From: a virus
DNA: 64,000 bases
IMG/VR virus record: IMGVR_UViG_3300031715_000002
Location: 1-64,000 of that record
Strand: one strand, 5' to 3'
Shown: piece after piece, positions 9,333 through 28,489 of the stretch
Layout of the letters: the number at the start of each line of letters is the position of its first letter
Position numbering within the stretch: the stretch's first letter is position 1
Notes under the pieces: generated by a model
Told to the model about the DNA's origin: nothing
The model's input: the letters and a program-made list of their open reading frames with translations, nothing else
The model's database searches: none
Translations under genes and position numbers: made by a program

Positions 9333-9671
9333 TTACGACGTTGCAGGCGCCGCTGGAGCCGGAGGCAATTTGGAAACGGCTGCCTCGATGGTGTTGAGGC
9401 CAGCCACTACATCGTCAATCACTGCGCTGAGCATGGCGGCGTCCAAGTGAGGCAACAGGGCCGTGATGATGTCGGTCGCGGCAGATTTCTTCGTGGCTCC
9501 TTGCCCTGTTCCAGTGGTTTGCTGCTCAATGGCTGCGATTGCTCCGATGACTGTCGCGGCAATCGGGCCGAATACGGGGATGGCGGAAATCAGGTTGTCA
9601 AAAGGGGCCACGTCTTTGGTTATGATGCCGAGGACGTGGCCGATAGACTTGATGACTGATAGAAAACTCAT
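9333..9671 (-). CDS. Small Ala-rich amphipathic protein, unknown function
   Basis: 112 aa. The N-terminal half is hydrophobic (FGPIAATVIGAIAAIEQQ) and may associate with membrane; the rest is helical with an Ala/Pro tail. Similar short proteins occur near phage lysis genes. Downstream on the sense strand the next start is preceded by normal spacing. Upstream, the 100 bp to the next gene contain an 8-bp inverted repeat, CCGTTACG/CGTAACGG (9690-9697 and 9759-9766). Confidence 0.5.
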   Translation of the reverse strand: MSFLSVIKSIGHVLGIITKDVAPFDNLISAIPVFGPIAATVIGAIAAIEQQTTGTGQGATKKSAATDIITALLPHLDAAMLSAVIDDVVAGLNTIEAAVSKLPPAPAAPATS

Positions 9672-10884: not shown

Positions 10885-12681
10885 TTAGTGCTTAACTGAT
10901 GGTCCACTAGAAGATCGGGGGCCGTTGGAGGTGTTGCCTGAAATCGTCGCGCCTTGGAACTGATAGGATCCGCTGTCCCATGCCGTGCTGAGTGGCCGTG
11001 CTATCGCTGTCTGCGCGGGACACACCATAGCGTGCGTGCCAATGTCATAAGAACAGCCATCCGTGGTCTCGTACTTGCAAGCGTTGGCGGCATCGGTACC
11101 GATAGCAGGCTCGGAAGAGAATGCAGCCAAGGCCGTGCAGTAAGATTGATGGTTTGCTCCGGCCAACACGGTTGAATTGCTACTGACAGTCGGCGTGCAT
11201 GGTGTAGTAGAATCGTTGGCGCAATTATTACCGTTGCCGACAGTCCCAGATGAACCGGTGGTGTAGCCTTGCGTGGTTGCCTGCGCGTTCGTTTGGACGA
11301 TGTTGGTTGCGCTGTTGTAGCCTGTGCAACTGTTCGCGCCGCCCGTCGAGTCGTAGAACGGTGTGTTGATGAGCTGGTTGTTGAGGACCGTGAGATATTT
11401 CCCTCCGTTGCTGTTCGTGCTCGGTACGCAGGGGATCTCGAAGTCCACGAATGTGTTGTTGAACATGAACTGCCCGCCGGTGTTCGTGCAACCGTAAGTC
11501 GGCGGTCCGGCATAGGCCCAGCCGTTGCCGCCTTCAGGGGTAACGTCGTAGACGAGGTTGTTAAACCAGTACTCCGGGGCGCTCTCCGGGCAGAACCAGA
11601 AATGAACCTGGCCACTGCCAACTAATCCTGGGTCATCATGCCGCAGGACATTGTTGTAAAACACATTTGCGGTTGAAGGGTTCGCATCATCATTGCATTC
11701 GAGTACGTTGGTGTGCGAACCTGCCCCGGCGTTGTGATTGTACATGTGCTCGAAAATATTGTCGTGGATATCGTGGCAGGCTTGGCCAACTCCTTGGTTG
11801 GTGTAGCGGACGATGCTGTCACGGAAGTGGTTGAACCCAGGAAAAGTCCCCCACGCGCACGACCCTGGGCTGCTGTCCTGTCCATCCACCACAATGTGAT
11901 CGAAGGTCTGGGTGCCGTTGCTTCCGCCGCCGATGAGCGTGCAGGGCTGGTTATTGCCGCCTGTGCCCGCTGTTGTGGTGGCTGTCCAGCCATGGATATA
12001 GGCGTTCGTCAGGAAGGCATCCGCGCCGTTACCTGTGGAGGTCCCGACATAGGCAATGATGGTGTCCTGGGTACCCGAAGTCACGGTACTGTCGGAAGAG
12101 CAGAGGCCAGTAAACTCGAAGTTATCGAGGATTGAGCCACTGGCCATTGACACCATGTTGTTGTTGTCGAGTGGAGAGGGCGTGCCCGCGATCTGATGAG
12201 CACAACTCGCCACCAATGTGGTCGAGGTCGAGTTGTCTCCGGTCATGATAGGACGCGTCCATGAACCGCCCGTGAACCACGTTAGGTCCACGCCGAAATA
12301 CAGGCATCCAGTCTGCGTACCCTCGAATGTGCAGGTGGAGGAAATGTCATGTGTGTAGGTGTAGATGAAAAGATTAAATATGTCCCAAGTTCCCCCCGTG
12401 GCTGGAGCCGTTGAGGTTCCGAAGTGCCAGGTGTCACCGCCGCGAAAGATTATTCCGACTCCTCCGCTTCCAGGGGAGAACGAATTGCAGTTGCTGGAGC
12501 AGTTCGGCATTCCCGGAGCATGGAGCCACGAATGGGTCTCATCGTTTCCGGTGTTGGTGTCCAGACCAGACGCCGAGACGAACACGCAATGCGTGCCGGT
12601 GATCGGGATGCCGAATGGGCAAGCACCCACGGCCCACGCCAATCCGCTCGCCACCAGCAATAGGGCGATAGCCCTTAGCAA
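10885..12681 (-). CDS. Secreted right-handed beta-helix protein
   Basis: 598 aa. A Sec signal peptide (MLRAIALLLVASGLAWAVGA) is followed by CVFVSASGLDTNTGN and IFRGGDTWHFG, an opening typical of parallel beta-helix proteins of the pectate-lyase-like class. Repeated short strands with Asn turns follow (FMFNNTFVDF, VFYNNVLRHD), along with many cysteines. No catalytic motif is certain. In a phage the fold suggests a tailspike or polysaccharide-binding protein, but the signal peptide suggests export by the host. It overlaps the previous gene by 7 nt. Confidence 0.65.
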   Translation of the reverse strand: MLRAIALLLVASGLAWAVGACPFGIPITGTHCVFVSASGLDTNTGNDETHSWLHAPGMPNCSSNCNSFSPGSGGVGIIFRGGDTWHFGTSTAPATGGTWDIFNLFIYTYTHDISSTCTFEGTQTGCLYFGVDLTWFTGGSWTRPIMTGDNSTSTTLVASCAHQIAGTPSPLDNNNMVSMASGSILDNFEFTGLCSSDSTVTSGTQDTIIAYVGTSTGNGADAFLTNAYIHGWTATTTAGTGGNNQPCTLIGGGSNGTQTFDHIVVDGQDSSPGSCAWGTFPGFNHFRDSIVRYTNQGVGQACHDIHDNIFEHMYNHNAGAGSHTNVLECNDDANPSTANVFYNNVLRHDDPGLVGSGQVHFWFCPESAPEYWFNNLVYDVTPEGGNGWAYAGPPTYGCTNTGGQFMFNNTFVDFEIPCVPSTNSNGGKYLTVLNNQLINTPFYDSTGGANSCTGYNSATNIVQTNAQATTQGYTTGSSGTVGNGNNCANDSTTPCTPTVSSNSTVLAGANHQSYCTALAAFSSEPAIGTDAANACKYETTDGCSYDIGTHAMVCPAQTAIARPLSTAWDSGSYQFQGATISGNTSNGPRSSSGPSVKH

Positions 12682-14093
12682 GGCCCCGCTCCAAGGAGGG
12701 ACATCGTGCAGTTGGTGACTGCTCCGCTAGAGGTCCTGAATGAGGTCAGCAGAGCTTGCCATGGATTGCTCGATAGCTGGGTAACATTGTTAGCCGTGGC
12801 TCCGGATGAGGAATTTAGAACAAAGGCCCAGGCGTTAACCGTGTTGTTAGTGAAGCAGGAGACATTTTCGCCCGCTCCGTCAAATTGGTAGCAGGTCCAC
12901 GGGCTGCCTACCGAGGTAGCATGAGAAAATACGGTCGTGAAGCCAAACAGAATCTCCCCGGCAGCGGAAGGGGTGATGGATGGTGTTGTAATAGTTGCGC
13001 CGGTAGCACCGGAGGCTAAGGCGGAATCCACGTCATGCGTTACTGGGCAACCAGCAGAAGGAATGAACTCGGCGTACGCGACTTGCGCCTCGGTGAAGCC
13101 TCCTCCGGAAGTTGTCATAGTGACGGTTTGTGCACCGACAGCAGTCGTTGAGAGCACGTAGTATAAGCGCGGTTGTCCTGCGGTGCTCCCGGTATTTCCG
13201 ATAACCGACGTTGCAGTAGCCGTTTGACTGCCTACCGTCACGGAGGTAACCGTGCAATCAGTCAGACACCACGTATAGACCACTACTAGATCGCCTAGCT
13301 GCGTAATGTTCGCCGTCGCGGTGGGATTCCCAGAAGCTACTTCCGTTCCGTAGTCGAAGAACCCAATATCCGCAGTCCCAGAGCACGTCTGGTTAGCGCC
13401 TGAACCCTTGATCCCTAATATCATAGAGGCTGTTGTCTGGGAGCACCCCGCGTCGGGGGTAGCGGTCACCGTCGTGATCGATGATAAGATCCCATCCGCC
13501 GCCCAGTTGCCGTTTGGAAATCCGTTGTTGGTTTTGGTAATTCCAGTAGCCGTGATACTGGAGGCATTGGAGCTGCATTCGCCTACCATAATGATTGCTT
13601 CTGCATCAAACCCGTTGTGGAAAGAAATCACTCCAGACCCACCTGCCAAAGGGACAAGGCATAATGCGCCGCCCGCCGACCCGTACTGGCACATCACCAT
13701 CTTGTCGATGGTATTAGTGGTGTCGGTCCCAGAGATTTCCCATACCCAAAAGGCATTCATGGTTCCGCAGGTCGTGCAGGTGATTGCAGTGTTCGAGGCG
13801 TTGGAGCTCTTGACTACCCAGGCGCAGAAGAACTCCGGGGTTACTGTGTGGTAGCAAGAGCCTATCTTGGTGAATGTTGTGCCGCTCCCGCCCGTGGTCT
13901 GCACGCTGGCTGGACTGCTAGTAGAGTCAGTGACCGCGATGAGAGTATGCCCGGCGCTGGTGCTAGTGATCGTTAACGATGAAGACCCGAAGCCGTTTTT
14001 ACGCTGTACGATAGCGGGAGCCGCCGCAACGTTGGGTGCAATAAATACAGCCCCGATCAATATGCCCGAGAGTATTCCAAGGATGGTCTTCAT
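12675..14093 (-). CDS. Secreted Thr/Ser-rich beta protein, unknown function
   Basis: 472 aa with a clear signal peptide (MKTILGILSGILIGAVFIAP, cleavage near VAAA). The mature part is Thr/Ser/Gly-rich beta sequence in two related halves; both contain a [VA]W-type strand, a Cys pair and NTAITC- or VTQLSSNP-like motifs, resembling the mature part of the 14109..15281 product. No enzyme motif seen. Probably exported, or a virion fibre component with an atypical leader. Confidence 0.6.
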   Translation of the reverse strand: MKTILGILSGILIGAVFIAPNVAAAPAIVQRKNGFGSSSLTITSTSAGHTLIAVTDSTSSPASVQTTGGSGTTFTKIGSCYHTVTPEFFCAWVVKSSNASNTAITCTTCGTMNAFWVWEISGTDTTNTIDKMVMCQYGSAGGALCLVPLAGGSGVISFHNGFDAEAIIMVGECSSNASSITATGITKTNNGFPNGNWAADGILSSITTVTATPDAGCSQTTASMILGIKGSGANQTCSGTADIGFFDYGTEVASGNPTATANITQLGDLVVVYTWCLTDCTVTSVTVGSQTATATSVIGNTGSTAGQPRLYYVLSTTAVGAQTVTMTTSGGGFTEAQVAYAEFIPSAGCPVTHDVDSALASGATGATITTPSITPSAAGEILFGFTTVFSHATSVGSPWTCYQFDGAGENVSCFTNNTVNAWAFVLNSSSGATANNVTQLSSNPWQALLTSFRTSSGAVTNCTMSLLGAGPC

Positions 14094-14108
14094 GCGTGCC
14101 TTCCAGGC

Positions 14109-15281
14109 TTACTGCTGTACGTATAGAACGGTCCCAGAGGTCTGTCCCGACCCGGAAAGAAGGAGACAGACATCATCCCCAAGAGTCGCGGTCTTGTTGA
14201 TCATTCCGGACCCCACTCCCGCAACGAATCCGCCATTGGCCGCAAAGTTCCAGCCTGTTGCGGCGGTCGCGCCCCCGGACATTCCAGCAGTGTTAGTTCC
14301 GCAAGTTGACCCCGTGCCTTCAACCAGCGCTATGTTCTGGGCGGTGGCCGTGATCAAAGGGGCTATCGCGCAAAGATATGTCTGCTTGCTGGCCACGCCG
14401 ACTATGATTCTTCCGCTTGCGGTAAGATTTACGGAAGCCACACTTGGCACTTGCTGATTGCATGGGTTGTAAGCCGTTTTCAGGTCCGAACTGGCTTGAG
14501 GTTTGATCGAGACCGTCATGGCTGAGTAGGTCTCGGAGGCAGAGATGGGGATGCTTTGGGTAAAGTTCGGGGCGTTATTGATGACCGCATGGGAGGAGTA
14601 GAAAACTGATAATGCCGCTCCACCAGACGGGGCTGTATTCTGCTGATCCGTTCCGATCAGTCCATTTGGAACAGTAGCGATTGAAACCGATCCAGAAGTC
14701 ACCGTGCCCGCACCCATTCCGACCCACACAGCGGCAAATTCATTCGGCAGAACTGATCCGAATTGGCCGATGCTAAGGGTAGTTGAAGTAGCCTGTACAG
14801 CGCCACTATAATCCCACGACTGCCCCACAGTAACGGCTCCCTTTAATTCGTAGCATGTAAATGCTGCGGCCCCTGAGACTGTAGTGAGCGTAATTGTATC
14901 CGTGGTGCCACCAACAATATTATTGGCTACGGACAAAGCATACCCTGGGGCGGCAGACGCACCGGAAACCACGCTGATATAGGTGTTGCTCTGCGAGTCG
15001 GTAAAGACCGGTACGGCGGAACCGGTGACTGCCGACTCAAACCCGCCGCATACAATCGTATTTCCGGCAGTCGTATTACCAGGAAAGGCATTTGTAAGGG
15101 TGGTTCCGGAGCCAGCAGAAATCTTGTTATTGATCTGGGCGGTTCCTGCCACCGTGGCCACTTGAACAGGAGGGTTTAAGACGCACGGCCCCCACGCTCC
15201 GCTGGACGATTGGCATTGAACGTTCTGCGCACTCAGGCATCCAGCATAAATAACAATTAGGAATAGTAGTCTGCGTTTCAT
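14109..15281 (-). CDS. Secreted beta protein related to its downstream neighbour
   Basis: 390 aa with a signal peptide (MKRRLLFLIVIYAGCLSAQ). The mature part has the stretch AFPGNTTAGNTIVCGGFES followed by Thr/Ser strands (FTDSQSNTYISVVSG), the same arrangement as in the 12675..14093 product, suggesting duplication. The start directly follows the stop of the upstream gene (1-nt spacing), so translation is probably coupled. Function unknown. Confidence 0.6.
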   Translation of the reverse strand: MKRRLLFLIVIYAGCLSAQNVQCQSSSGAWGPCVLNPPVQVATVAGTAQINNKISAGSGTTLTNAFPGNTTAGNTIVCGGFESAVTGSAVPVFTDSQSNTYISVVSGASAAPGYALSVANNIVGGTTDTITLTTVSGAAAFTCYELKGAVTVGQSWDYSGAVQATSTTLSIGQFGSVLPNEFAAVWVGMGAGTVTSGSVSIATVPNGLIGTDQQNTAPSGGAALSVFYSSHAVINNAPNFTQSIPISASETYSAMTVSIKPQASSDLKTAYNPCNQQVPSVASVNLTASGRIIVGVASKQTYLCAIAPLITATAQNIALVEGTGSTCGTNTAGMSGGATAATGWNFAANGGFVAGVGSGMINKTATLGDDVCLLLSGSGQTSGTVLYVQQ

Positions 15282-17918
15282 TTAGTAAAGCCTCACAAAT
15301 GCGGTAACCGTCGATACGCTTGATGCCGTGGTTTTGACTACACCGACCCCCTCTCCTGTCGTACAACTCACTGATCCATTATCGTGAGCCAATCCGGCTG
15401 TTGATGACGCGCAAAGAATGTCTCCAAATGTGACATTCTGTGTTGCATCAATCACCACACTAGTTTCCCCGGTGGCTACCCACGTGGAGGAAGAGTTGAA
15501 TATCCCAAGAATGTTGTTTGATGGAGTCCCGACACAATTACCAATGGTATTCGAGGCGGTGTAACAAGCCAGATGGCCGCTGGTGATTGTACCTGCCGTG
15601 TCTGTAAATGTCGGGACCTCCGAGCATGATGCCCCAAGTGTACAAACTGTGCCATTTACCGTCACGGAAGAATTTGACAGTTTGGCATTGGCAATGCTTC
15701 CGGCCAGCATGGTGCTAGTAACCGATCCTGTATCTGTAGTGCTCACTATGTTAGCCGCAACCTTTCCAGAATCCGTTAAGGTACAGGTGGTGCTGGAAGT
15801 AGTGCATGAAAGAAGATCCCCTGTAGCAGGAACCGAGGTAGGCCCTAACATAGTGTTGCTGGTTGTGCTCGGAGATGCCCCGACAGTGAAGGTGCCTGAG
15901 CCGGTAGCGTTGCCGAATGCCCACGTGCCAGTGCTGGTACCAGGGACGCCCAATGTAGGAGTGATTGATTCTAAAGGAACACCAGATGAATTAGCTATCA
16001 CGGCCGCACCATTTACCGGCGTCACAAACGTGGTCCCCCCAGTTCCGCCTTGGATCACAATGTCATTTGCCGCGCCGCCGGCGATGTTCGTTGCTGTAGC
16101 GGCCGTTGTTGCGCTGCCAACGTTCAGTGAAGACTGAGCGGTTGATGTAGCCACGTTTGCCACGCCTACCCAGACATTTCCTGTGCTAAGAAATGTGGTC
16201 TCAACTTGCGATCCGTTAACCTGCACCGTGCCGCTTCCCTTACTTTGCAGATTAAGGCTGATGTTGCTGTCGGACCCGGTAGCTCCTAAACCGACCACCG
16301 CCGGATTGGCTGTTGCCGCATTGGTCACAGTCAGAGAATCGACAGCGCTTGCCGTTGCCGAGGACGTCATGAATGGATTTCCGTTGCCGTCGTCAATGGT
16401 CGTGACGTGTGGAGTGGTCAGTACTGGAGATGTGACTAGTGCGAAGTTACCGGACCCGCTTGTGTTGCCGGTAGCATCGGATGGAGTTACCGCGCTGCTG
16501 GTCACTGTCTGCGTAGATCCAGCGAAATGTGCCACGCCCGCGCCAGGACTGGAGGCTACTACTAAATTCGCCGCGACTACGCCGCTGTCCGTCGCCGTGT
16601 GGTTTCCATTGGCCGAAATGACATGACCCGATGTGTAGTTGCTTGAATTTGTGGTGACATTGGCAGCCACTACGCCGCTGTCCACCAGCAGGCCGCCGCC
16701 TGTCCCGCTAAAGCTTGCCAGATCACCGCTGGTATCCGATGCTGGCCCCTGCGTGAGCGGCAGATAGCTTCCGTTGTTCCAACTGCACAGCATCCCGTGC
16801 TGCGTTGAATCGGCATAACAGATATCTACGCCAGAGGCCGCGCCCACACTTGGAACCGTGCCCTCGCCATAGGCATCCACTCCGCCTGTCCCTGCTGTTA
16901 CGGATGGCGGGCTAGTCCCGGTAGATACACTGGCCGCCGTAAATGCCTCAGTTGTGCTAACGGTTGTCCCATTATCCACCACGCTGGAGTCAATGATTGA
17001 GTTAGCGCCGTTTGCCTTTGAGAGATGATTTGTGGTGAGACTCGTGCTGGTCGTGTTACCCGTCCCGCTCGGTGCCGCACAAGCCCCATCACCTCTGAGG
17101 AAGGTGCTACTGGAGCAAGAGCCTGTCCACAGGCCGTACACATCCGAGGATGCCGCATTGCTCAATGCTCCCGTGGTAGTGGTGTTTTTGACGATTCCCG
17201 TGCCCAAGGTGGCCCAATTTTGGTTTGAGGTACCCAACGTTAGGGTAGCCGTGTTCGCCACGCCCGTGCCCCCGTGCGCCGCCGCAATCGTGGTCCCATT
17301 CCACGTACCGGTCATGGTGGAACCAAGCAAAGCCAGCGACCCTCCGCCGCTTGGGAAGGTCCAAGTAGAGGTTGACGGGATGGCAAACGTGGGATTAAAC
17401 GCGCCGGTAAAGAGCAGATTTCCTGCAAGAGTTATGGTATTCGATCCGTTGTTGACGCCGGTACCACCGTAAGTTGCGCCCACCAAGCCGGAATTGATCT
17501 CAGTACCAGAGATGCTTTTGTTTGTCAAAGTCTGAACATCTGTGGTTCCTACCACAGCACCAGCAGGAGCCGCTACGGTAGCAACCGTGCATACGCCAGT
17601 GGTAGTAGAGCAAGTCAGCAACCCGCTGCTGAGCGCGCCAAGGTTGATGGCGTTGGCTGGTTCACTGGTCGATTGGTTGACGAGATAGAACCCGTTCGGA
17701 TTAGCGCCACCACCGCCAGTGCCACACACAGAGCCTGTCCCGCTCGGTACACCGGAATTGTTGACCTGCACGCATTGCGTCCCACCACCAGTGATCGGGA
17801 GCTTTAGCGTACCAAGTCCGCTCAGGTCAAGGCTCCCAGTGGCCGCCGCGTTATAGTTGGCGGATTGACCATAAGCAATCGTAGTTAGAAGTAAAGTAAG
17901 TAGGATTTTTCGCATCAT
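15282..17918 (-). CDS. Secreted tail-fibre-like protein
   Basis: 878 aa with a signal peptide (MMRKILLTLLLTTIAYGQS). The mature sequence is dominated by phage fibre repeats, for example TTDVQTLTNKSISGTEINSG, GATYGGTGVNNG and HGGTGVANTATLTLGT, plus several DSGVVAAN repeats at about residues 410-455 and a DSGKVAANIV unit near 700. These motifs are common in fibre shafts. A fibre carrying a Sec leader is unusual. The protein lies in a continuous operon with other leader-bearing proteins. Confidence 0.7.
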   Translation of the reverse strand: MMRKILLTLLLTTIAYGQSANYNAAATGSLDLSGLGTLKLPITGGGTQCVQVNNSGVPSGTGSVCGTGGGGANPNGFYLVNQSTSEPANAINLGALSSGLLTCSTTTGVCTVATVAAPAGAVVGTTDVQTLTNKSISGTEINSGLVGATYGGTGVNNGSNTITLAGNLLFTGAFNPTFAIPSTSTWTFPSGGGSLALLGSTMTGTWNGTTIAAAHGGTGVANTATLTLGTSNQNWATLGTGIVKNTTTTGALSNAASSDVYGLWTGSCSSSTFLRGDGACAAPSGTGNTTSTSLTTNHLSKANGANSIIDSSVVDNGTTVSTTEAFTAASVSTGTSPPSVTAGTGGVDAYGEGTVPSVGAASGVDICYADSTQHGMLCSWNNGSYLPLTQGPASDTSGDLASFSGTGGGLLVDSGVVAANVTTNSSNYTSGHVISANGNHTATDSGVVAANLVVASSPGAGVAHFAGSTQTVTSSAVTPSDATGNTSGSGNFALVTSPVLTTPHVTTIDDGNGNPFMTSSATASAVDSLTVTNAATANPAVVGLGATGSDSNISLNLQSKGSGTVQVNGSQVETTFLSTGNVWVGVANVATSTAQSSLNVGSATTAATATNIAGGAANDIVIQGGTGGTTFVTPVNGAAVIANSSGVPLESITPTLGVPGTSTGTWAFGNATGSGTFTVGASPSTTSNTMLGPTSVPATGDLLSCTTSSTTCTLTDSGKVAANIVSTTDTGSVTSTMLAGSIANAKLSNSSVTVNGTVCTLGASCSEVPTFTDTAGTITSGHLACYTASNTIGNCVGTPSNNILGIFNSSSTWVATGETSVVIDATQNVTFGDILCASSTAGLAHDNGSVSCTTGEGVGVVKTTASSVSTVTAFVRLY

Positions 17919-17947
17919 GGCACCATCGTTAACCGCGATTCCCTACG

Positions 17948-20900
17948 TCATTGGATGCGTGCTACCTGAAGGCCTTGAGGCATCCACGTGCCACCGATGA
18001 GCAATTCCACCTGATAGTACAGGAAGTGACGGGAAAGCGCTGGAACCTGGATTGTGCAGGATACCGGGCAGAAAAGCCCTGTGGCCGATTCGCTACCCCA
18101 ACTGAATATCTGGGGGCTGGCCGGAATGGTCGCTGTGACCGCTTGGCATTTGTCGAGCCTCGTCATGCAATGGTAATCGGTAGGAGCGCTTCCATTCTCG
18201 AAGTATCCGAAGTCCACGCGCGCCGCCGTGCTTCCTCCGCTGGCCGTGATGTTGATTGTATAGGGAACCGGATTCCATCGCTGTACGGCATCCGGAGTCG
18301 GAAAGGAGGGAAGCCTGGAGGCGCACACGGCGTTCCAAACTCCGTTCACAGCGATACACCACGTCAAATACCAGCTTCCGTCAGGAGTGACGCGCCCGTT
18401 GGCGTTGACGTTTAGAAAGCGCTGCCGCGTCAGGAAATGTCCCAGGCCACGGGCGTACTGCGCGTTAGGATCGGTCCCATTGGCCCAAGAGTATTGCGAA
18501 GGGGCATTGAGCCATGCGCCAGTATTGAAGAAGCCGACATCGTTTTGGGAGAACAACCCGATTCCGCCGAGTGGCAAAGGAACCAGATTGGGGCATGTAA
18601 AGACGATATCTCCCTGAGTGCGACCGCCGCCGCATTCCGTGGTAGTGCGCGCTTCACAGTATTGGTATGTTCCAGGTAGCCCGCTTGCTGGCCCTGAGAT
18701 GTCAGTCAGCGGCTGGGTTCCGCAAAAAGCCATGGTCGGTTGAACCTTTCGGTTCAGACTGTTGGCGATTCCAGATCCGCCAATGCCGTTGAAATCGTCG
18801 CCGTTGCTTGTAGTTCCAGCATAGTAGTAGGTGTTGCCGGAAATGTGAATAGCGGTGCCGGTCTTACTAGTCGGAGAGTTGACGGTGTCCATCGTTTCTC
18901 CGGTCCTAAAGTCCACCATATAATTCGCGCTGGTCTGGCTATCGCCGTATCCGCTAGTATGGTCCTGGGCGGCTTCAACGAACTGCGGAATTCCTTTGAT
19001 TCCTCCGAATAAAGGAGCTAGCGATAGGTAATAGGTCGGGGAAGAAGCCGTTAAACTCGTTAGAGCGGCATAGCCACCGGTCGGTGGTTCTCCTGGATTC
19101 GCACTCCATCCGTCCGCTCCCACGACATAGGATGGCCGTGGCGTCGGATGGTCGATATAATAGGCCGTCGCCACCTGGCCGCCTCCATTCAGGCCGTGAG
19201 GGTCTGTCGTATAATTCCAGGTCCATGACTCACTTCCATGGGGAACGGCGGCCGAGCACTGCATGTAAAGTGTGATCGTGCCAGATGGGCAAGCGCTTCC
19301 GCCGGAAGATGTGCAAAGCCCGCTATCGCTTACGCCGCGGCTGACAGAGATTGTCGGAGTGCTACCACCGCTCGTGCTCAACACCTGAACGTTCTCGCCA
19401 GAACCGCCGCCCTGGAAGCTGATCACATCGCCCACTGCGATGTTCTGAATGAAGCCATCCGAGCCGTTTGGTTGAGCCGCCAGCGTTAGAGTATTGCACC
19501 CATGGGGCACTCCGCCAGGGCAACCTCCTGTCCCTGGTGCGAACTGCGGGCTAGTGCCGATGGTTCCGCTCGAAACCGTGCTCGTCTGGAAACTCTGTCC
19601 CGCGCTTCCGCCGTTCGTCAGAGTCTTCCCGGCGATCCACATCGTACTGGTGTTGGCTTGGCCAGCAGAAAACAGGGTGTGAAGCGTACACCAACGGTTT
19701 GGCGAGGTGGAGGAACCGCCCCCCCAAGTACTCATAGCTGCCATGACGCATCCGGGACCGCCGCCGAGAGCGCTCACACACCCGGCGTTGCCTGCTTGTC
19801 CGTTAGTCGTGGCAACTGGGTCGAAGGAGTATACCCATCCGTAGGTGTCTTGCTGAGACTGGACACAATCGCCAATCAGTAGTGGATCTCCATTACTCCA
19901 CTGCTGCAAACCGCTGATGCCGCATCCCTGCGTTGAGAAGGTCGTTTTATTGAAACTCGGGGTTTGCCCAGTCGTAAAATTAACCAGCAGGCTCAATAAG
20001 TCAGCATTGATCGAACTTGGAGTAAGGTTCGTACCGCTGTTCCAATTCCAGGAGCCTGGCTGAAGAGTGGAACTTGGAGGAAAGGTGATAAGAACCTCTG
20101 TTCCGGTGTTATCTAGGCCGGTGCAGTAGATCTTGAAAGGACCGCTGCCGGTGATAGTGGTGGATGCGTTATTACATGCCTGCCCGCTTCCATTGCCCCA
20201 ACCGTCAGTTCCAGCCTTGCTCGGATAGTTTATAGTTGATAGGGCGTTTCCCTGACCAGTAACGGTATCGAAGAAATAGAAACCTGTTCCAGGCACCTGC
20301 ATGAGATATCCGGCATGCCCGGTAGTAGAGTTAGTTAGTTGCGTTAGGTCAAAGAGATCCGGAGAACCGCTGGCCGGCCACTGAACGGGCAGGCTGCTTG
20401 TTATGGAATATGTGGCGTACTGGATCTTGATCGTGTTCACCGTGTCCGTGGTCCAGATCAGCCAGCCGAAATTGGTGGCCGAGTAGGGCGCGCTGGAAAC
20501 CGGAACCGTGAGGGCAGGGCTACAGGCGCTAGGAGTGATCGTAAACGCCGTGATCGTGACAGCGCTCGTGATTATGCAAACCGAAGACCCAATAGTCACG
20601 ATACTTCCGGGGGACCAGTTTAGATTGAAATTCGTGATTGAATTCTGAGTCGGTATCACGAGTGAAACGTTTCCGCTTCCATCCACATTCACGTTGCCCG
20701 AGCGCTGCTGCATGTCGCCGTACAGAGACTGTTGTTGGCCTAGAAGAGGAGAAGAACCGGCGGGCGTCCAGGAATCTAGGATAGGAGTCGTTGTACCCAG
20801 AGTGACGGTCGAAAGAGATCCAGTGAGATTGGCGGTCTGGGTCTTCGTTGTGCCGTTAGTTGGCCAGCAGTTCGCATTATTGACGGTCGGGCACGCGATG

Positions 20901-21766
20901 ATAGGCGACGACGAGCCGGTGGTCAAGCCGGTGATGCTCAGGACCGCCGAGTCGATAGTATAGAAGTTCCCGCTGTTATCGAAGAGAACCGTATCGATCA
21001 CCGCCAACTTTCCGGAGCCAGCACCTGAAAACGTGGCATATACCCCAGGCGAGTTGAGCAGGATGTTGCCGGGGTTGGTCCACCCGCTCACGCTCGTAGC
21101 CGTTGTGAAGCTGTGCGTACCGCTAAAACCTCCGGTGAAGGGAAAGTCCTGTGGATAAGTAACAAGCTGAACGCCAATACCACTCTGTGTATCGGGAAGA
21201 ACTTCCGGATTGGCCCCCCGAACCATTGAAAGAAACTGCGGATAGGCGTACTGACCGCCAGGAACGTAATAAGCCGTGCTCAAGCTCAGGTCGGGCGGGA
21301 CATCCTCGTTGAAGGTATTTCCCAGGAGAATATTATCCGTCGTAAAAGAACCGGTGGCCGTTCCTCCGCACCCGCTAATCTGGTAATACACGGTTGTTAG
21401 CGGCTTTAGAGAACGAGAGTGGAAATAGCCGTCCAGCGCCCGCTCTGCGGCGCGCTTTCCCAGGATGAAGATTCGAGACGTGCCGTTGTTTACGGACCCG
21501 GTTCGGTTGTCCTGATTGCTCCCGCTATATAGACTCGGGTCCACATCCGCAAGCAGCGGTGATAGAGTTGGCGATTCGCTAGCCGCCACAGTACAGGTGG
21601 TATTCGCAGGAGCCGTGAAGGTGAGTTGGGCCTGCTGGGTGAGCGGCGAGACCGTTACGCTGAAACCACTGCCGGCCGCCGTAGTTCCACTTAGCATCGA
21701 CGGCGCGATCTGAGCCGAGCAGCTGAGCGCCACGAAAAATAGAGAAAATCTCAGTTGTACACCCAT
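17948..21766 (-). CDS. Very large secreted protein, unknown function
   Basis: 1272 aa from ATG 21766, chosen because the signal peptide MGVQLRFSLFFVALSCSAQ starts there; the frame itself opens 40 codons earlier inside the upstream gene. The first 130 mature residues look fibronectin-III-like (AQLTFTAPANTTCTVAASES, ending in YYQISGCGG). The rest is Thr/Ser/Asn/Trp-rich beta sequence with scattered Cys, and the C-terminus ends in a second Ig/FnIII-like part (VPYTINITASGGSTAARVDF). It overlaps the upstream gene by 16 nt. It is the largest product in the window. Confidence 0.65.
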   Translation of the reverse strand: MGVQLRFSLFFVALSCSAQIAPSMLSGTTAAGSGFSVTVSPLTQQAQLTFTAPANTTCTVAASESPTLSPLLADVDPSLYSGSNQDNRTGSVNNGTSRIFILGKRAAERALDGYFHSRSLKPLTTVYYQISGCGGTATGSFTTDNILLGNTFNEDVPPDLSLSTAYYVPGGQYAYPQFLSMVRGANPEVLPDTQSGIGVQLVTYPQDFPFTGGFSGTHSFTTATSVSGWTNPGNILLNSPGVYATFSGAGSGKLAVIDTVLFDNSGNFYTIDSAVLSITGLTTGSSSPIIACPTVNNANCWPTNGTTKTQTANLTGSLSTVTLGTTTPILDSWTPAGSSPLLGQQQSLYGDMQQRSGNVNVDGSGNVSLVIPTQNSITNFNLNWSPGSIVTIGSSVCIITSAVTITAFTITPSACSPALTVPVSSAPYSATNFGWLIWTTDTVNTIKIQYATYSITSSLPVQWPASGSPDLFDLTQLTNSTTGHAGYLMQVPGTGFYFFDTVTGQGNALSTINYPSKAGTDGWGNGSGQACNNASTTITGSGPFKIYCTGLDNTGTEVLITFPPSSTLQPGSWNWNSGTNLTPSSINADLLSLLVNFTTGQTPSFNKTTFSTQGCGISGLQQWSNGDPLLIGDCVQSQQDTYGWVYSFDPVATTNGQAGNAGCVSALGGGPGCVMAAMSTWGGGSSTSPNRWCTLHTLFSAGQANTSTMWIAGKTLTNGGSAGQSFQTSTVSSGTIGTSPQFAPGTGGCPGGVPHGCNTLTLAAQPNGSDGFIQNIAVGDVISFQGGGSGENVQVLSTSGGSTPTISVSRGVSDSGLCTSSGGSACPSGTITLYMQCSAAVPHGSESWTWNYTTDPHGLNGGGQVATAYYIDHPTPRPSYVVGADGWSANPGEPPTGGYAALTSLTASSPTYYLSLAPLFGGIKGIPQFVEAAQDHTSGYGDSQTSANYMVDFRTGETMDTVNSPTSKTGTAIHISGNTYYYAGTTSNGDDFNGIGGSGIANSLNRKVQPTMAFCGTQPLTDISGPASGLPGTYQYCEARTTTECGGGRTQGDIVFTCPNLVPLPLGGIGLFSQNDVGFFNTGAWLNAPSQYSWANGTDPNAQYARGLGHFLTRQRFLNVNANGRVTPDGSWYLTWCIAVNGVWNAVCASRLPSFPTPDAVQRWNPVPYTINITASGGSTAARVDFGYFENGSAPTDYHCMTRLDKCQAVTATIPASPQIFSWGSESATGLFCPVSCTIQVPALSRHFLYYQVELLIGGTWMPQGLQVARIQ

Positions 21767-23649
21767 GAGCCACCCAGACAACGTACCGGGGCATGAACAC
21801 TCCCGGTTGTGCTTGGAGCAGCCAGGTAAGCCGGGCTGCTGGCGTTGGTCACCAGTCCGACCATGCGCTCCAGAACCGAACTGCAAGCTGGTAGGCCGCT
21901 GATCGTAGTGGGTGGGTTGTAAAAGTTCTCAATCCCGGCTATGGAAGTGACGTGCGAGAGGCCGGCAGAGGAAAGAGGAACGGAAATCTTCCCGTTTACA
22001 TTGACGGGAGCAGTGATGGCCATGCTGCTTACACTGCCCTGGGCGTCTACCAAATAGGGAGTGGCCGAAAATGACCCATTGTCGCTTACCCACCCATCGA
22101 CCTGAAGATTGGTTACCGGATTGATGGTCTGAAGCAAGAAAGCCCCGCTGGAACCGGCCGCGCTGGTATTCCTGTATAGCCCCACGTTCTTCACGATCAA
22201 GTTGCTTATCGTATTCTGAACGTTGACGCACGATGGTGCCAGGGGATTTGATGTAAGTTCGTTGGTGCAGTCGCTGTTCACCACGCTAATCGTGTTCCAT
22301 GAACCAACTGACTGGTATACGGGAGCTTGGACGGAGTGGGCATCGGAGACAAAGATTGGTCCGTTTGAATCGGCAGCCGTCAAGCCATTCCCGCTGGCCA
22401 TGTATACCAGGGCCTGCGTGACAACTGACCCCGCATCAACAGTGACTCCGTTGATTCTGATGTTCGTCAAAGGAAAAGCGCACGAGCCAGCACTGTTATA
22501 GCCCGCGACGGCAGAGAAGACATTCCCGACCTCTTCAGACTCAATATTCACATTGTCGATGGGGCCACAGTGACCCTCGGGGGCATTCAGCGCGATATCG
22601 GTGTCTGTGGTGGATGCCGTAGTGCCGGCCATGCCGCAGTAGTTTCTTGAGAAAAAAACGTCCTTCTCTGGACCATCCATATGGCGGCAATCTCGCCCTG
22701 ATCCACTTGGAACTGATATCCACGTCCCCGCCGTGTGAACGTTGATGTCTCGGTCGTAGAGAATACCGTATGATGGCGTGTTGAATATCCGGACGTTATC
22801 GATCCATAGGCCGTCTGTGTTGGCAATGTGGATGCCCGTGCAGTTCGCAGTGCCGTTGGAACAGCCATTGCCGGCCGCGATATTCGGCGCGTTCATGTTT
22901 ATGGAAAGATCCCGAATAACGATGTTCGACCCAGTAGCTCCTGGCGTAACCGTCGTGCTAATGGTCGCCGTTCCGCTGCAAGTGGCTGTTCCGTTGCTCG
23001 CCACAACAGTGGTGGGCGCTGACGTGAAGTTTCCGGGGAACGTGATCGTGAGCGCCGTACCGCCAGCAATCGTATTTGTGCCGGTCAGGGCTACAGTGGC
23101 TGTGGCTGGTATCCACCCAGGAGACACGTTGTTGAACGAGGTGAGCGTGCACGTCTGCGTGACGCTCCCGGTCGCCGTGATGCCGCTCGTATAAGTTCCC
23201 GACGCCAATCCTCCAGGTGGAGCCGCGTTGTTCAGATTGTTGGCGTATCCATTGGTGATCGCGCTGTCGGTTGCGCCTGCCTCCATGAAGATCCCGGCTC
23301 CTGGCGTTATGCCCTGAATGGCGCAAAATCCTCCGGTTGGGCATTGAATATGAGCGCTTAAGGCGATGCCTTGATCCAAGAGAATTACTACCGGGTTGGT
23401 CGCGCTGGCCCCAGACCAAGCCGCATTTATCAGGCCAGCATTTGCGCTCCCAGGATCTGAGCACGAGGGGTTCAGGACGTAAGGGCTAATCGTGCAGCCG
23501 CCCGTAACTCCTAGCTGAGAAGACAGGAAAGTTTTCGCGGTTGTGGAGACTTTTCCTTTGAATACAGTGTCCACGTTTACGCTAGTCTGCGGAGCAGACT
23601 GCATAGCGATTGCGAGGAACGCGATAACTAAGGCCGATTTAGTCTTCAT
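21751..23649 (-). CDS. Secreted pectate-lyase-like beta-helix protein
   Basis: 632 aa with a signal peptide (MKTKSALVIAFLAIAMQSA). The central part has beta-helix rungs: IVIRDLSINMNAPN, GIHIANTDGLWIDNVRIFN, GPIDNVNIESEEVGNVF, TNIRINGVTVDAGS. The overall plan is a pectate lyase-like superfamily fold as used in phage tailspikes. Catalytic residues cannot be assigned. A C-terminal part with CSSVLERMVGLVTNASSPAY could be a trimerisation or attachment domain. Confidence 0.65.
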   Translation of the reverse strand: MKTKSALVIAFLAIAMQSAPQTSVNVDTVFKGKVSTTAKTFLSSQLGVTGGCTISPYVLNPSCSDPGSANAGLINAAWSGASATNPVVILLDQGIALSAHIQCPTGGFCAIQGITPGAGIFMEAGATDSAITNGYANNLNNAAPPGGLASGTYTSGITATGSVTQTCTLTSFNNVSPGWIPATATVALTGTNTIAGGTALTITFPGNFTSAPTTVVASNGTATCSGTATISTTVTPGATGSNIVIRDLSINMNAPNIAAGNGCSNGTANCTGIHIANTDGLWIDNVRIFNTPSYGILYDRDINVHTAGTWISVPSGSGRDCRHMDGPEKDVFFSRNYCGMAGTTASTTDTDIALNAPEGHCGPIDNVNIESEEVGNVFSAVAGYNSAGSCAFPLTNIRINGVTVDAGSVVTQALVYMASGNGLTAADSNGPIFVSDAHSVQAPVYQSVGSWNTISVVNSDCTNELTSNPLAPSCVNVQNTISNLIVKNVGLYRNTSAAGSSGAFLLQTINPVTNLQVDGWVSDNGSFSATPYLVDAQGSVSSMAITAPVNVNGKISVPLSSAGLSHVTSIAGIENFYNPPTTISGLPACSSVLERMVGLVTNASSPAYLAAPSTTGSVHAPVRCLGGSWVYN

Positions 23650-23650
23650 A

Positions 23651-24751
23651 TTAGTGCTGCTTGAGTGCCACTACGACGCTGGTCCCGGCCGCTCCCGGAG
23701 TGGCTGGACAATTGAAAGACGGAGTACAAGCTAAATATGGATTGAAGGTCCCAGTGCTGCTAACGATCTGATCATACACCGCCTCCTTCCATTGAGACTG
23801 GGAAGTACTTGCCGTGGGTTGCCTGAAGTTCCAGGTTGACGACACGCTAGCGCAAGTCGAGCCAAAAGCCACATTTCCAGCTAGGCAGGTATTTCCGTTA
23901 CCGGAGTCGAGAGCCGATATTGCCAGGACGAGATCAGCAGCGTTGGTTGTGGTGACCCCAGACACACTCCCTAACGCGCAACCATTGGTAACTGTTTGGC
24001 ATCCATCGTTGACAACGCTCGACGCAGCGTCCACGGTCAGAATTGGACCATTCGCGTATTCAATCATCGTAACTGCAAATAAGGAAGTCCCTGTCGATGT
24101 GTTAGTCGTAGCCGTAACTGTAAATGTCCCGGTTGAACCAGAGACTATACTACCGAATAGTTGGAAATTAGCGAACCCTAAAGATTGGGTTACCAAAGAC
24201 GAGTAGGAGTTGCCTGTCTGGTTATCTGTGGGTGTCCCGAACGTTATGGCGGCTCCCGAAGTTTGATTTTGCGCGGCTGGAATTACTAGGATGGTGTCGC
24301 CTACCGTCGGCGTGGAACCGAAAGAGCAGTTTAGCGTGGCCACCCCCAAAGATCCTTGGCAGTATTGTTGCTGGACAAAGGTCGTGGCTGGACCGCTAAT
24401 AGTGTACGCTGCATTGCTGGTGTTGCTGTTCGTCTGTCCGACCTGCGTGGCGTACGCATACAGAGTCTCGGTCGTGGAGACTGAGACTGTCGTGGTGTAG
24501 GTCGTCCATCCGGCTCCGCACGTGCCAGCCGTCCCACCTTGAGACAGATTTGAAGTGGCGTAGCATCCGGTGGAGCCGCCAGGGTAGGTAATCGTGACGG
24601 TCTGCGTGCTGCTATACGACCCAGCAGGTGGAGAAAATGTCGGGGCCGCAAGTTGAACGGGAGGCTTATTAGAGCCAAAGAACCCAGAAGGCTGCGCCCA
24701 GGCAGCGACAGAAAACAGCACGCTAATTGAAATTTTTATTGAAATTTGCAT
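23651..24751 (-). CDS. Secreted protein with chitobiase-C-type domain
   Basis: 366 aa from ATG 24751, chosen because MQISIKISISVLFSVAAWAQ is a signal peptide; an in-frame start 42 nt earlier would bury it. About residues 35-115 match the chitobiase/hexosaminidase C-terminal (CHB_HEX_C) pattern: APTFSPPAGSYSSTQTVTI, then TTTVSVSTTETLYAYATQVG and NAAYTI. The remainder is Thr/Ser-rich beta sequence. CHB_HEX_C domains are non-catalytic and may bind glycans. It overlaps the upstream gene by 29 nt. Confidence 0.7.
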   Translation of the reverse strand: MQISIKISISVLFSVAAWAQPSGFFGSNKPPVQLAAPTFSPPAGSYSSTQTVTITYPGGSTGCYATSNLSQGGTAGTCGAGWTTYTTTVSVSTTETLYAYATQVGQTNSNTSNAAYTISGPATTFVQQQYCQGSLGVATLNCSFGSTPTVGDTILVIPAAQNQTSGAAITFGTPTDNQTGNSYSSLVTQSLGFANFQLFGSIVSGSTGTFTVTATTNTSTGTSLFAVTMIEYANGPILTVDAASSVVNDGCQTVTNGCALGSVSGVTTTNAADLVLAISALDSGNGNTCLAGNVAFGSTCASVSSTWNFRQPTASTSQSQWKEAVYDQIVSSTGTFNPYLACTPSFNCPATPGAAGTSVVVALKQH

Positions 24752-25394
24752 AGCACGCAGTAGCTCCGCTGTCGTATGTGAAGCTGAGGACATCTATCGC
24801 GTTGGCTCCAGCGGAAGGCGTGACGGCTCCGCCACCGCCGCCGCTTACCTTCCAGGTGCAGCCTGTTCCGAGTGTCAACCCCTCTCCGCCCGTGGAATCC
24901 TGAATTATCTTGGCCGTGTAGAACCCGCCGTTTACCAAGCCTGTCAAATTAAGAGTTCGGCTACCAGAGTGAACAGTGAAGGTCAAGGTCGCCTGCGCAT
25001 TTAGAACCGAGCCAATCGCCCACGTAACTGTCGCTCCGTCAGTGAGAGTAGTCCATGAAGAAGCAGCGAGGCCGGCCGGTGGCAAGCCTGTGACGTTTGT
25101 TAACGTGCCGCTGGAAGGCGTACCGAGCGCTCCGCCCGTAACGACCAGGGCGTTAGCGAACGTGTTGGTGGCACTGCAATGATGAGGAACGTAGCTGGCT
25201 GCGCTGTCGAACCACCAATCTTTGCCGGGCGTGCAGTTGGTGGGCGCGGTGGTCGCGGCAATCTGGTAGGCCGTCTTCTGGTTGATCTCAGCCGCAGCCG
25301 TAGTGGAATTGCTTGCCGATGTCGCCCACTGCGCGATGGCCGGCGCGATAGCGAGAAATGGACACACTGATAGGGCTATCAAAAATTTCTTCAT
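24723..25394 (-). CDS. Secreted fibre-like protein
   Basis: 223 aa with a signal peptide (MKKFLIALSVCPFLAIAPAIAQ written as far as the AIA-Q site). It contains the phage-fibre motif GGALGTPSSGTLTNVTGLPP, followed by a compact C-terminal beta domain (ATLTFTVHSGSRTLNLTG ... FTYDSGATACYANFN) of the sort that ends short fibres. Lies between the collagen-like and chitobiase-C-like genes in one operon. Confidence 0.65.
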   Translation of the reverse strand: MKKFLIALSVCPFLAIAPAIAQWATSASNSTTAAAEINQKTAYQIAATTAPTNCTPGKDWWFDSAASYVPHHCSATNTFANALVVTGGALGTPSSGTLTNVTGLPPAGLAASSWTTLTDGATVTWAIGSVLNAQATLTFTVHSGSRTLNLTGLVNGGFYTAKIIQDSTGGEGLTLGTGCTWKVSGGGGGAVTPSAGANAIDVLSFTYDSGATACYANFNKNFN

Positions 25395-25402
25395 GTTTTA
25401 CC

Positions 25403-27061
25403 TCAGTTCACAATGACGCCGGTCCACTGTGCGTTCGTTAGGATTCCAGTCCATTGACCATTGGTTAGGTTGCCATGCCATGACAACCCTGCACTGCCAC
25501 CCGTTGCTCCTCCAACAACTAAGCAATTAAGTGTCTCGGATGACACATCGGTAATGTTCAAGCTGTTGGATGCAAGGTTCGCGAAAGGTACGCCGATAAC
25601 AGCCACTCCAGTGGAGTTGAAGCAAGTCACGCTGGCGGTGTAGGGACTGGCTAGGTTCAGACTATGAGTGATCGTGTATGGCGTGCCACCAGTGACGCTG
25701 ATGGAGTTGGCATTATAAGTCGTTCCTCCGCCGCTATTTCCACCGCTGCTGTTGATAGCCAGATATCCGCTTTGAGAGCCCGCGAAGGCCACTACAACGG
25801 TGAATGCTGACGACACAGTTATAGAGCTTGGCGTGATCTGGTTAGCCGGGCTGGAATTGTCGTATGCCGTAACGCTCAGAGCCGTTGTCGAGATTCCGTG
25901 TGTACTGGTCCCGTTACAGCCAGTGCCGACCGTAACTGTGACAACAGTCTGGCTGGTGAAGTTTATTTGGCAGCCCGTGCTAGTAGCGCCAGTTGACCCA
26001 GTCGGACCAGTGCTGCCAGACGGTCCCGTGGAACCCGTTACCCCCGTGATTCCGGTCGAGCCTGTCGGTCCAGTTGGACCGGTTGGTCCTGTGCTACCAG
26101 TAGCGCCTGTGCTTCCCGTCGCACCGTTAGTGCCATTCGTGCCAGCGGTTCCTGTAGCTCCCGTAGGACCAGTTGGTCCCGTTGGACCAGTGGCACCAGT
26201 TGGTCCCGTAGCTCCTCCACCGCCTCCACCTGTTTGGCAGAATACGGTTCCGTTGTACCCGAAGGCATAGGCGAAGCCCCCGACTAATGCACCCGCTGAT
26301 AGATTTGTAGCGCAGTCTGATAACTTGAGAGTCTTTGCGCCAAGGCTCGCAACGTTGAGCGTGCTCGATCCTGTATTCGTGGTCTGCGGGATGAAAACGA
26401 CAAATAGGCCGCTCAGCGTTGTGACGTTCGGAACTGGCGTCGGGCAAGTATAGGTTGTAGTGCTGCCGCTGGCATCGACGCACAGAGCGTTGTTGCCAGT
26501 GCCTGGCGTTCCCGTGGCACCAGTTGGTCCTGTTGCGCCGGTTGATCCGGAAGGACCAGCATTGCCTGTAACTCCAGTAGGACCAGTGGCACCGGTCGCT
26601 CCATTAGATCCAGCAGTTCCTGTTACTCCAGTAGGTCCCGTTGATCCGGTAGCCCCTGTTGCTCCATTGGCCCCAGTCGCACCTGCTGGCCCTGTGCCAT
26701 TTCCGTTGACCACGCACGTGATGTTAGCCGTAGATGAGAAGTTAAATACTACGCTTGTGACCGTGCTCGTGTTTCCGATAGTGTAGGCCGTGAACGGCGT
26801 AAATGGCCCGCTGCCTGTTCCGGTAAAACAGAACGTGATGATGTAGTTGAGGCTTGTGAGATTGAGCGCCGTGGTGTTGACGGCGAGTGTCGTAACTGCG
26901 GGAGTCGATTGGGCAAAGGCATTCGGCCCGCCAGCCACAGCTAAGTTGGAGTTGGGGACGCACCCGAGTTGCCCATTAGGCAGCGCGCCAAGATGGCCGT
27001 TAGCGCCGCACTGAGCAGCCAACGTGCCCGCAAACGCCAAGGCTATCAGGATTGTTTTCAT
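25403..27061 (-). CDS. Secreted collagen-like protein
   Basis: 552 aa with a signal peptide ([17 protein letters not shown]). Two collagen-like Gly-X-Thr/Pro regions occupy about residues 123-190 and 281-361 (units such as [19 protein letters not shown]), separated by a globular domain of about 90 residues and followed by a beta-rich C-terminus. Bacterial collagen-like stalks trimerise and appear in phage fibres and exported adhesins. The third-position Thr bias is typical of bacterial rather than animal collagen. The C-terminal repeat ([20 protein letters not shown]) is a tandem duplication. Confidence 0.8.
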
Positions 27062-27083
27062 AATCAGAAAATTCTCAAGCTGC

Positions 27084-27440
27084 CTAGTAGTAAGTCAGGC
27101 TCGCCCGGTTGTTCCAGATGTTTGCGAATGTGGATGAGCCTACAGCCCATTGCGTTTGTGTCAGGTTCGATCCTGAGTAGGTAAACTTTTGGATGGCCCA
27201 AACCGCTTTAGTTGCATCAGGCGGTCCGCTACTCAGCGCCCATCCGATGTACAGGATGTTCGATCCACCGCCGTAATCGTAGAGTTTGCTGATGGCAAAA
27301 TCCGGGGGCGCATCGGTAGGAACGCAATCGTAGATAGCGCGGTGCGATGTGCTTTGCGCGTTGACTGTCGTCCCGGAGTTGAAACTGCCTGCCAGAAACC
27401 CAAACAGGATGCAAGCGAATGCGAGAGACTTTCGAGACAT
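27084..27440 (-). CDS. Small secreted protein, unknown function
   Basis: 118 aa with a signal peptide ending near TTVNAQ. The mature part contains YIGWALSS and [20 protein letters not shown] and ends in [11 protein letters not shown], a pattern seen in short phage proteins near fibre genes. Its ATG overlaps the lysozyme stop as TAATG. It is the first of ten consecutive leader-bearing genes in transcription order. Confidence 0.6.
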
Positions 27441-28012
27441 TAGGTAGCCACTCCTTTTGCAGCGGCTAACGCTGCCTGCACTTCGTGGTCGTTGATGATT
27501 TCAAGTAGCGTGTCCGCGTAGCTCGGGGAGGTCGCGTATATCGGCGCGAAGGCGCGCACGCATTTATCGAGATTAACGTCTTGCTGGTACTGCTGCATGA
27601 TGGCAGCGTAAGGGGCGCGCGTGAACAGATTGGCGCGGTAGGCGAAACAATCGGCTAGCGTGGCGAAGGACGCGAACCAGTCCAGCACGTGGTACTTGTT
27701 TACGGCATTGCTGTGTTTGTCATACGTGGGCTTGTAAGTCTGATCAAGCGTTGCTGTGCGCCCACGGTCAAGCGCAAGAAATTGCGTTCGCTGCGCATCA
27801 GTGAAGTATTCTGTGGTCGGACAGAGTTTTTCGCTCCACTGGCCGGTGTACGCCTTGATCCCAAGCGCATTGTTCTCACCGCTCATGTAATCCAGCCAGC
27901 CGCTCTCCAGCGCTGCCTGTGCCATCACGATTACAGCGGGGCATGTGGGCACAAGCACTTCACAACGGACAGATGCTTGCGCAAGGGATTGCAGGACAGT
28001 GGGGGTTTTCAT
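27440..28012 (-). CDS. Endolysin, GH73-type N-acetylglucosaminidase
   Basis: 190 aa from ATG 28012. The pattern VIVMAQAALESGWL, then NALGIKA and YHVLDWFASFATLADCFAYR, fits the glucosaminidase (GH73/FlgJ-like) family; the Glu in ALESGW (about residue 36) is the expected catalytic acid. It cleaves peptidoglycan, for lysis or virion entry. No signal peptide or membrane anchor. An upstream in-frame start exists but the added sequence overlaps the divergent plus-strand gene and looks non-coding. Ribosome site is weak. Confidence 0.82.
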   Translation of the reverse strand: MKTPTVLQSLAQASVRCEVLVPTCPAVIVMAQAALESGWLDYMSGENNALGIKAYTGQWSEKLCPTTEYFTDAQRTQFLALDRGRTATLDQTYKPTYDKHSNAVNKYHVLDWFASFATLADCFAYRANLFTRAPYAAIMQQYQQDVNLDKCVRAFAPIYATSPSYADTLLEIINDHEVQAALAAAKGVAT

Positions 28013-28042
28013 TTCTGCGCTATTTGTGCCACAATAGGAGAA

Positions 28043-28489
28043 ATGGCTATACCGATTTGGCTGCTTATTCTGATTGGCTATGCGATGATGAGTTGGCAAA
28101 CGGCGGCGGCTATCTTTGCAGATTGCCAGCATTTGTCTAGTCAAGAGTCTGCCGAACGCGACTACCGGCAAGACCTAGGGATTACATGGCTGTTTGCGAT
28201 TTTGCCGCCTATCTGGTTGGCAACGCCATTTGTTACTGGATTCTGGAAGCACGGCTGGAACTGGACATTCGCGCATAGGGAGCCAGAATCAGACATTGGC
28301 CGCGTACTCGCGAATGTAAGGACCGAAGCGGGCCTACCGATTTTACCAGCGTATAATGTGCCGGTAACGGTGCAATGGGTTCAGCCAGCCCCGCCCGTAT
28401 CCGACCACTCGTACACCACACTGAGCATTTACCACGGCGAAGGTTGCGCAATCTGCGGTAGGCCAAAAAAGGAGCATGTGAACCGATAA
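28043..28489 (+). CDS. Small membrane protein with C-terminal zinc-like motif
   Basis: 148 aa from ATG 28043, preceded by AGGAGA. Two hydrophobic segments lie at about residues 3-22 (PIWLLILIGYAMMSW) and 46-65 (TWLFAILPPIWLATPFV). The cytoplasmic tail ends in HGEGCAICGRPKKEH, a possible zinc site. It is divergent from the lysozyme gene and one of few plus-strand genes. Possibly a superinfection-exclusion or lysogenic conversion protein; the orientation, not homology, suggests this. Confidence 0.6.
   Translation: MAIPIWLLILIGYAMMSWQTAAAIFADCQHLSSQESAERDYRQDLGITWLFAILPPIWLATPFVTGFWKHGWNWTFAHREPESDIGRVLANVRTEAGLPILPAYNVPVTVQWVQPAPPVSDHSYTTLSIYHGEGCAICGRPKKEHVNR

Follow-up and report, generated by a model that had tools for sequence, protein, structure and literature searches.

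In this study, we have analysed a window of 64,000 bases (bases 1-64000 of a 96,199-base virus record, the remaining sequence of which was also analysed), and our results indicate that ten consecutive genes within it probably make up a cassette of late genes for phage fibres and spikes that are exported via Sec. Counting for this reading are the ten leaders in a row, the parity and high content of cysteines in the products, the fibre features of three of them (g2, g3 and g7) and the presence of independent cassettes in other phages. Counting against it are the lack of a recognisable attachment domain at the mature N-termini and the enzymes encoded in other blocks (GH26 in phage G017, a polysaccharide lyase in phage Pan5). 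Tailed phages are taken to build their fibres in the cytoplasm. We found no published description of such cassettes in the open-access literature, an absence that is no proof of novelty, and the phage signal peptides found there were only those of endolysins and of envelope proteins such as Lom. Exported, oxidised fibre cassettes in several phage groups would change the recognition of receptor-binding proteins in metagenomes, where annotation may file such fibres as host secreted proteins, and would suggest either that fibres mature outside the cell or that the phage makes an extracellular layer.

Genome setting of the block

The main phage genes of the record lie on the minus strand, and the ten ORFs follow each other on that strand from 27440 down to 10885 as one co-directional run, overlapping or abutting within the late-strand genes with gaps of -29 to +44 bases. 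The first-pass annotation had described ten consecutive ORFs with a Sec-type signal peptide each, and all ten are indeed present, co-directional and provided with a high leader score. It had also placed them between terminase and portal, which holds broadly, as the block lies between the terminase large subunit (32829..34127, minus strand; phrog_2, 1.4e-39) and the portal protein (6735..8237, minus strand; phrog_113, 8.6e-75), but it adjoins neither directly and other genes intervene on both sides. Above the block are small genes and, directly adjacent, a glucosaminidase-type endolysin (27440..28171, minus strand; PF01832, E 7.6e-13; phrog_3513, 1.9e-16), for which no signal peptide was found from this start; below it are five small genes, including one for a holin-like small protein with a weak match (9333..9671, minus strand; phrog_6918, 5.6e-4). 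A head morphogenesis protein (5743-6729) and a fused head-maturation protein (2205-5327) are encoded on the same strand. Two gene starts within the block had to be moved: the gene at 17948 begins at 21766 rather than at 21886, and the gene at 23651 begins at 24751, inside a long ORF.

Judged by position and sequence, the likely capsid, tail, tape-measure and tail-tip genes, together with the gene of an ordinary collagen-like fibre that has no signal peptide, lie at the far end of the record, which is therefore probably a permuted genome. The ordinary tail genes of this phage (G000) lie away from the block, which is not in the tail module. No tyrosine integrase (PF00589) was found in the 96-kb record, which may be incomplete, and one scan of genome contigs yielded no Acidobacteriota provirus.

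Leader peptides

Leaders were scored with a home-made scorer that evaluates the n-, h- and c-regions and the (-3,-1) rule, and that gives 8.8-12.1 for known exported proteins of E. coli. The ten block proteins score 9.7-12.2, nine of them at least 10.3, and in each leader a positive n-region and a hydrophobic stretch precede a small-x-small site. Genes for head, tail and packaging that were tested in the same phage score at most 5.1, and hardly any ORF in the rest of the 96-kb record exceeds 9, those that do being spurious or unrelated. In 112 portal-related loci, 21 of 874 ORFs score 10 or more (several of the 21 come from similar blocks), and against this background nine of ten in a row at that level is far beyond chance. 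The earlier observation that the cleavage site is mostly followed by Gln also stands, a small residue followed by Gln being found in seven of the ten (VNA/Q, LAA/Q, AIA/Q, AWA/Q, CSA/Q, AYG/Q and LSA/Q, the slash marking the cut). The scorer also passes some N-terminal membrane anchors (DedD 10.7, MalG 10.0), so the score alone is no proof of cleavage, and cysteine parity was used for that purpose.

Cysteine parity and oxidation

Even cysteine numbers are preferred in exported bacterial proteins, owing to disulphide formation (PMC7678975); this reasoning is of the E. coli type and is assumed here to hold for the hosts of these phages. In the window, the mature cysteine number is even in nine of the ten block proteins. 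Among 66 leader proteins from 13 contigs, 46 have an even and 11 an odd number of cysteines when counted downstream of the predicted cleavage site, compared with 32 and 29 for the full-length chains. The first seven contigs gave an even number in 25 of 31 cysteine-containing mature proteins versus 76 of 162 controls, and six further contigs, collected only once the test had been fixed, gave 21 of 26 versus 24 of 65 (Fisher p ~4e-7 for both sets pooled, with the caveats that proteins within a contig are not fully independent and that the start chosen for each ORF was the one with the highest leader score). The outcome holds for fixed cuts at 18-30 residues, and removal of a random segment instead of the leader leaves 48% even. 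Bacteroidota-like blocks are poor in cysteine and the parity evidence does not extend to them; without these contigs the parity is stronger, with 43 of 50 even.

Because parity turns even only once the leader is removed, the leaders are, as far as sequence can show, cleaved off and the mature chains built for disulphide bonding, and these chains would therefore fold outside the cytoplasm. Even parity is here a signature of putative periplasmic disulphide bonding. The cysteine content points the same way, at 1-3.8% in the block; head and tail proteins of this phage mostly have less than 1.4%, and 78 ordinary fibre proteins average 0.21%. Export of the block proteins is thus strongly supported by their predicted features, and since they combine cleavable leaders with paired cysteines, they evidently leave the cell before it lyses.

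The ten proteins

Three members of the block, all of which are encoded on the minus strand, have a fibre family or fold. The exported collagen-like tail-fibre protein g2 (25403..27061, 552 aa, 12 cysteines in the mature part) matches PF01391 (E 2.5e-15) and phrog_5073, tail fiber (7.5e-36), and with this Pfam match the collagen-like protein of the first reading is confirmed. The exported fibre-head protein g3 (24723..25394, 223 aa, leader ending in APAIA before Q) has homologues with and without a signal peptide; its C-terminal beta-sandwich (residues 111-220, carrying Cys179 and Cys214) is modelled by AlphaFold at pLDDT >90 and is matched by Foldseek to viral tail-fibre C-terminal domains, with E down to 2.4e-10. 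The exported fibre-repeat protein g7 (15282..17918, 878 aa, leader MMRKILLTLLLTTIAYG before Q, 16 mature cysteines) carries GGTGVNN repeats common to 116 other ORFs, mostly ordinary phage fibres, in contigs partly selected by one g7 motif. By homology or fold, then, the block encodes at least three fibre proteins.

No family has been assigned to the remaining seven. The first of them, g1 (27084..27440, 118 aa), has an ATG start with a ribosome site (AAAGGAG) upstream, a score of 10.45, a leader ending in TTVNA before QSTS, and no family match. It is joined by g4 (23651..24751, 366 aa, score 10.8, leader MQISIKISISVLFSVAAWA before Q, 10 mature cysteines), which has no family match in Pfam; g5 (21751..23649, 632 aa, score 11.4, leader MKTKSALVIAFLAIA before MQ, 16 mature cysteines); g6 (17948..21766, 1272 aa, score 9.7, leader MGVQLRFSLFFVALSCSA before Q), with 28 mature cysteines and one in the leader; g8 (14109..15281, 390 aa, score 10.6, leader MKRRLLFLIVIYAGCLSA before Q, 8 mature cysteines), for which AlphaFold from the single sequence gives a poor model (pLDDT 32); g9 (12675..14093, 472 aa, score 11.0, leader ending in APNVAA before APA, 16 mature cysteines); and g10 (10885..12681, 598 aa, TTG start, score 12.2, leader MLRAIALLLVASGLAWA before VGA, 22 mature cysteines). 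The beta-helix, chitobiase-C and FnIII labels previously given to block proteins found no confirmation in Pfam. Pfam places none of the ten in a carbohydrate-active enzyme family, and neither Pfam nor PHROGs detects an N-terminal virion-attachment domain in any of them. Single-protein scans of viral contigs gave no relatives of g5 or g6, tblastn gave no match for g6 against phages and plasmids or for g7 and g3 against phages, and PDB sequence searches gave none for g5, g6 and g10. A domain that by eye seemed common to g4, g8, g9 and a G017 protein was unsupported by phmmer and jackhmmer, and a match of g8 to an amylase inhibitor was below the Pfam family cut-off.

The head of g3 occurs both with and without export. 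A scan of viral contigs with g3 matched 18 contigs: in L253, L254, L255, L256 and L258 the g3-type head is on leader-bearing proteins, in runs of such genes, and in L257, L259 and L264-L269 it is on ordinary fibres without a leader. The cysteine pair corresponding to Cys179 and Cys214 is present in all exported soil-type versions of the head, window included, and absent from every version without a signal peptide as well as from L263, which is exported and Bacteroidota-like. The exported versions are closely related, so that this represents one correlated change and not six independent ones.

Similar cassettes in other phages

Runs of leader-bearing fibre-like genes are found in at least 12 other phage genomes, in clusters of 2-10 genes, and comparable blocks are present in contigs of sipho-, myo- and podo-like type, drawn from many separate metagenomes. 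Of the near relatives by portal, G002, G003 and G004 have leader genes and L005 has none between terminase and portal. The portals of G002, G003, G004 and this phage are 65-70% identical while their cassettes share almost no sequence, a divergence as would be expected of host-interaction genes. Phage G017, which was reached via leader-bearing proteins of the fibre-repeat motif survey and has a different portal family, carries eight consecutive leader genes exactly between terminase and portal, among whose products are a GH26 enzyme and a beta-helix-like spike that carries Peptidase_S74 (1.6e-8); in its relative PdC23 the terminase adjoins the portal. Blocks lie directly behind baseplate genes in G014 and G022 (the latter with a baseplate-J-like gene), sit within a tail module or immediately after it in G014, G019, G022 and L133, and are also in a tail module in G004. 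Further blocks were found in G014 and G024 (with Bacteroidota-like leaders), G018, G019, G021, G022, G023 and G025. In the isolated Pseudanabaena phage Pan5 (ON968456), leaders are carried by the protein annotated as cement (Pan5_07), by a large protein encoded next to it and by a polysaccharide lyase; virion mass-spectrometry data exist for this phage (PMC9837993).

Possible functions of the exported proteins

The idea of exported fibres or adhesins put forward in the first-pass annotation is upheld as regards export (leaders, parity) and the fibre nature of g2, g3 and g7, and falls short as regards several domain names without Pfam support. Taken alone, the sequence fits both a secreted adhesin or decoration system and fibres assembled outside. 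In the mechanism that we propose, the block proteins would be expressed late, along with the lysis genes, and the host Sec machinery would export them; in the periplasm they would be oxidised and presumably form trimers, and lysis would release them to act as glycan- or receptor-binding fibres. Docking on progeny virions at or after lysis is the most likely single endpoint, with a probability that we place a little short of one half, and would extend fibre maturation to the periplasm and the outside. In vitro, finished particles of model phages can take up tailspikes and long fibres, and late docking is therefore possible. Tentatively, there may be a second assembly route, in which Sec exports fibres and spikes, their disulphide bonds and trimers form in the periplasm, and virions acquire them no earlier than at lysis; if true, it would provide oxidised, rugged and freely exchangeable receptor-binding parts, possibly shared by co-infecting phages. 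This phage also has a collagen-like fibre that lacks a signal peptide, and its virion may therefore do without the block.

Nearly as likely as docking is that the proteins are exported and never become virion parts, acting free or at the cell surface by masking receptors on the infected cell and its debris, by excluding other phages or by clearing exopolysaccharide. Phages are known to export proteins of this sort, such as lambda Lom (PMC12309495), and the GH26 and polysaccharide lyase members, the ordinary fibre in the same phage and the number of different proteins (up to ten per phage, many for one tail) fit such a role; however, the S74 chaperone, the collagen and the tail-fibre repeats are virion-type parts, and the blocks of G014, G019, G022 and L133 lie in or right behind tail modules. 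The same two enzymes could suggest auxiliary metabolic cargo, that is, secreted enzymes helping the infected host to degrade soil polymers, but this is unlikely for a block in which fibre domains dominate and carbohydrate-active enzyme families were not found by Pfam. That the leaders are uncleaved hydrophobic anchors or buried segments of ordinary cytoplasmic virion parts is very improbable: the scorer does accept some membrane anchors, but cysteine parity is even only after leader removal, the (-3,-1) rule holds in 65 of the 66 leader proteins (it was partly used in choosing the cut), Gln is at +1 in 36 of the 66, and such leaders are rare in ordinary fibres (5 of 83 fibre-repeat proteins with an intact N-terminus in the motif survey). 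That the block stems from faulty assembly or annotation, or from host DNA fused to a phage contig, is conceivable for a metagenomic record but hardly credible when the same arrangement recurs in contigs of many separate metagenomes and several phage groups.

The cassette of exported fibre and spike proteins that we favour has partial counterparts in known systems. Its proteins resemble tailed-phage fibres and tailspikes (collagen-like, GGTG-type repeats, Peptidase_S74) in domains, repeats and head fold, and also in late-operon position and rapid replacement between relatives; unlike these, they have a Sec signal peptide, are rich in cysteine with even parity, show no visible virion-attachment N-terminus and come in clusters of 2-10 genes. 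The outer-membrane protein Lom of lambda, whose gene lies between those for the tail tip and the tail fibres (PMC12309495), has a leader that scores 12.3 with the same scorer. Lom and Bor share with the block proteins a signal peptide and export to the host envelope, but they are single, small, outer-membrane or lipoprotein products, whereas the block is a long run of large, fibre-like, soluble proteins. Endolysins with signal peptides, such as Lys44 of fOg44 and LysA of Ms6 with its chaperone (reviewed in PMC6116005), are likewise phage proteins sent via the host Sec pathway and linked to lysis; the block cargo differs in being fibre-like and not lytic, and the endolysin of this phage shows no signal peptide. 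Finally, surface-displayed bacterial DGR proteins, which like the block proteins are binding proteins displayed outside, have been told from phage DGR fibres by the rule that absence of a signal peptide marks phage fibres (PMC6199706), a rule that the block proteins break.

Additional observations

Just outside the window, next to the collagen-like fibre that lacks a signal peptide, a pectate-lyase-like spike (PF12708; L002:3897-6122, record 66897-69122) has a hydrophobic start scoring 7.6 and is possibly an eleventh exported or anchored protein. The annotated capsid cement protein of Pan5 (L247:5945-6346) clearly starts with a signal peptide (score 11.7) and would thus be a decoration protein that is exported; its weak PDB matches to glutamate receptors were regarded as fortuitous. 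In Flavobacterium phage lotta8-1, a product annotated as structural and coat-protein-like (L245:20810-21892) likewise has a signal-peptide-like leader (score 12.1). In G017, the gene below the portal (L242:5134-6921) seems by eye to have an intein-like insertion in a head-morphogenesis protein. The 1040-aa product of 2205-5327 in the window combines histidine phosphatase, 2'-5' RNA ligase/LigT and XkdF-type phage protease domains in one chain. The late region of the record beyond the window (L002) and those of G002 and G004 are dotted with glycosyltransferase-like and sugar-metabolism-like genes, which in G004 form a long run. The window also contains two ISL3-type transposase gene pieces in opposite orientations (39925-40599, minus strand; 52297-53223, plus strand) and, at 59053-59240, an array of about 30 CCCGGA hexamers with a higher-order unit of 30 bases.
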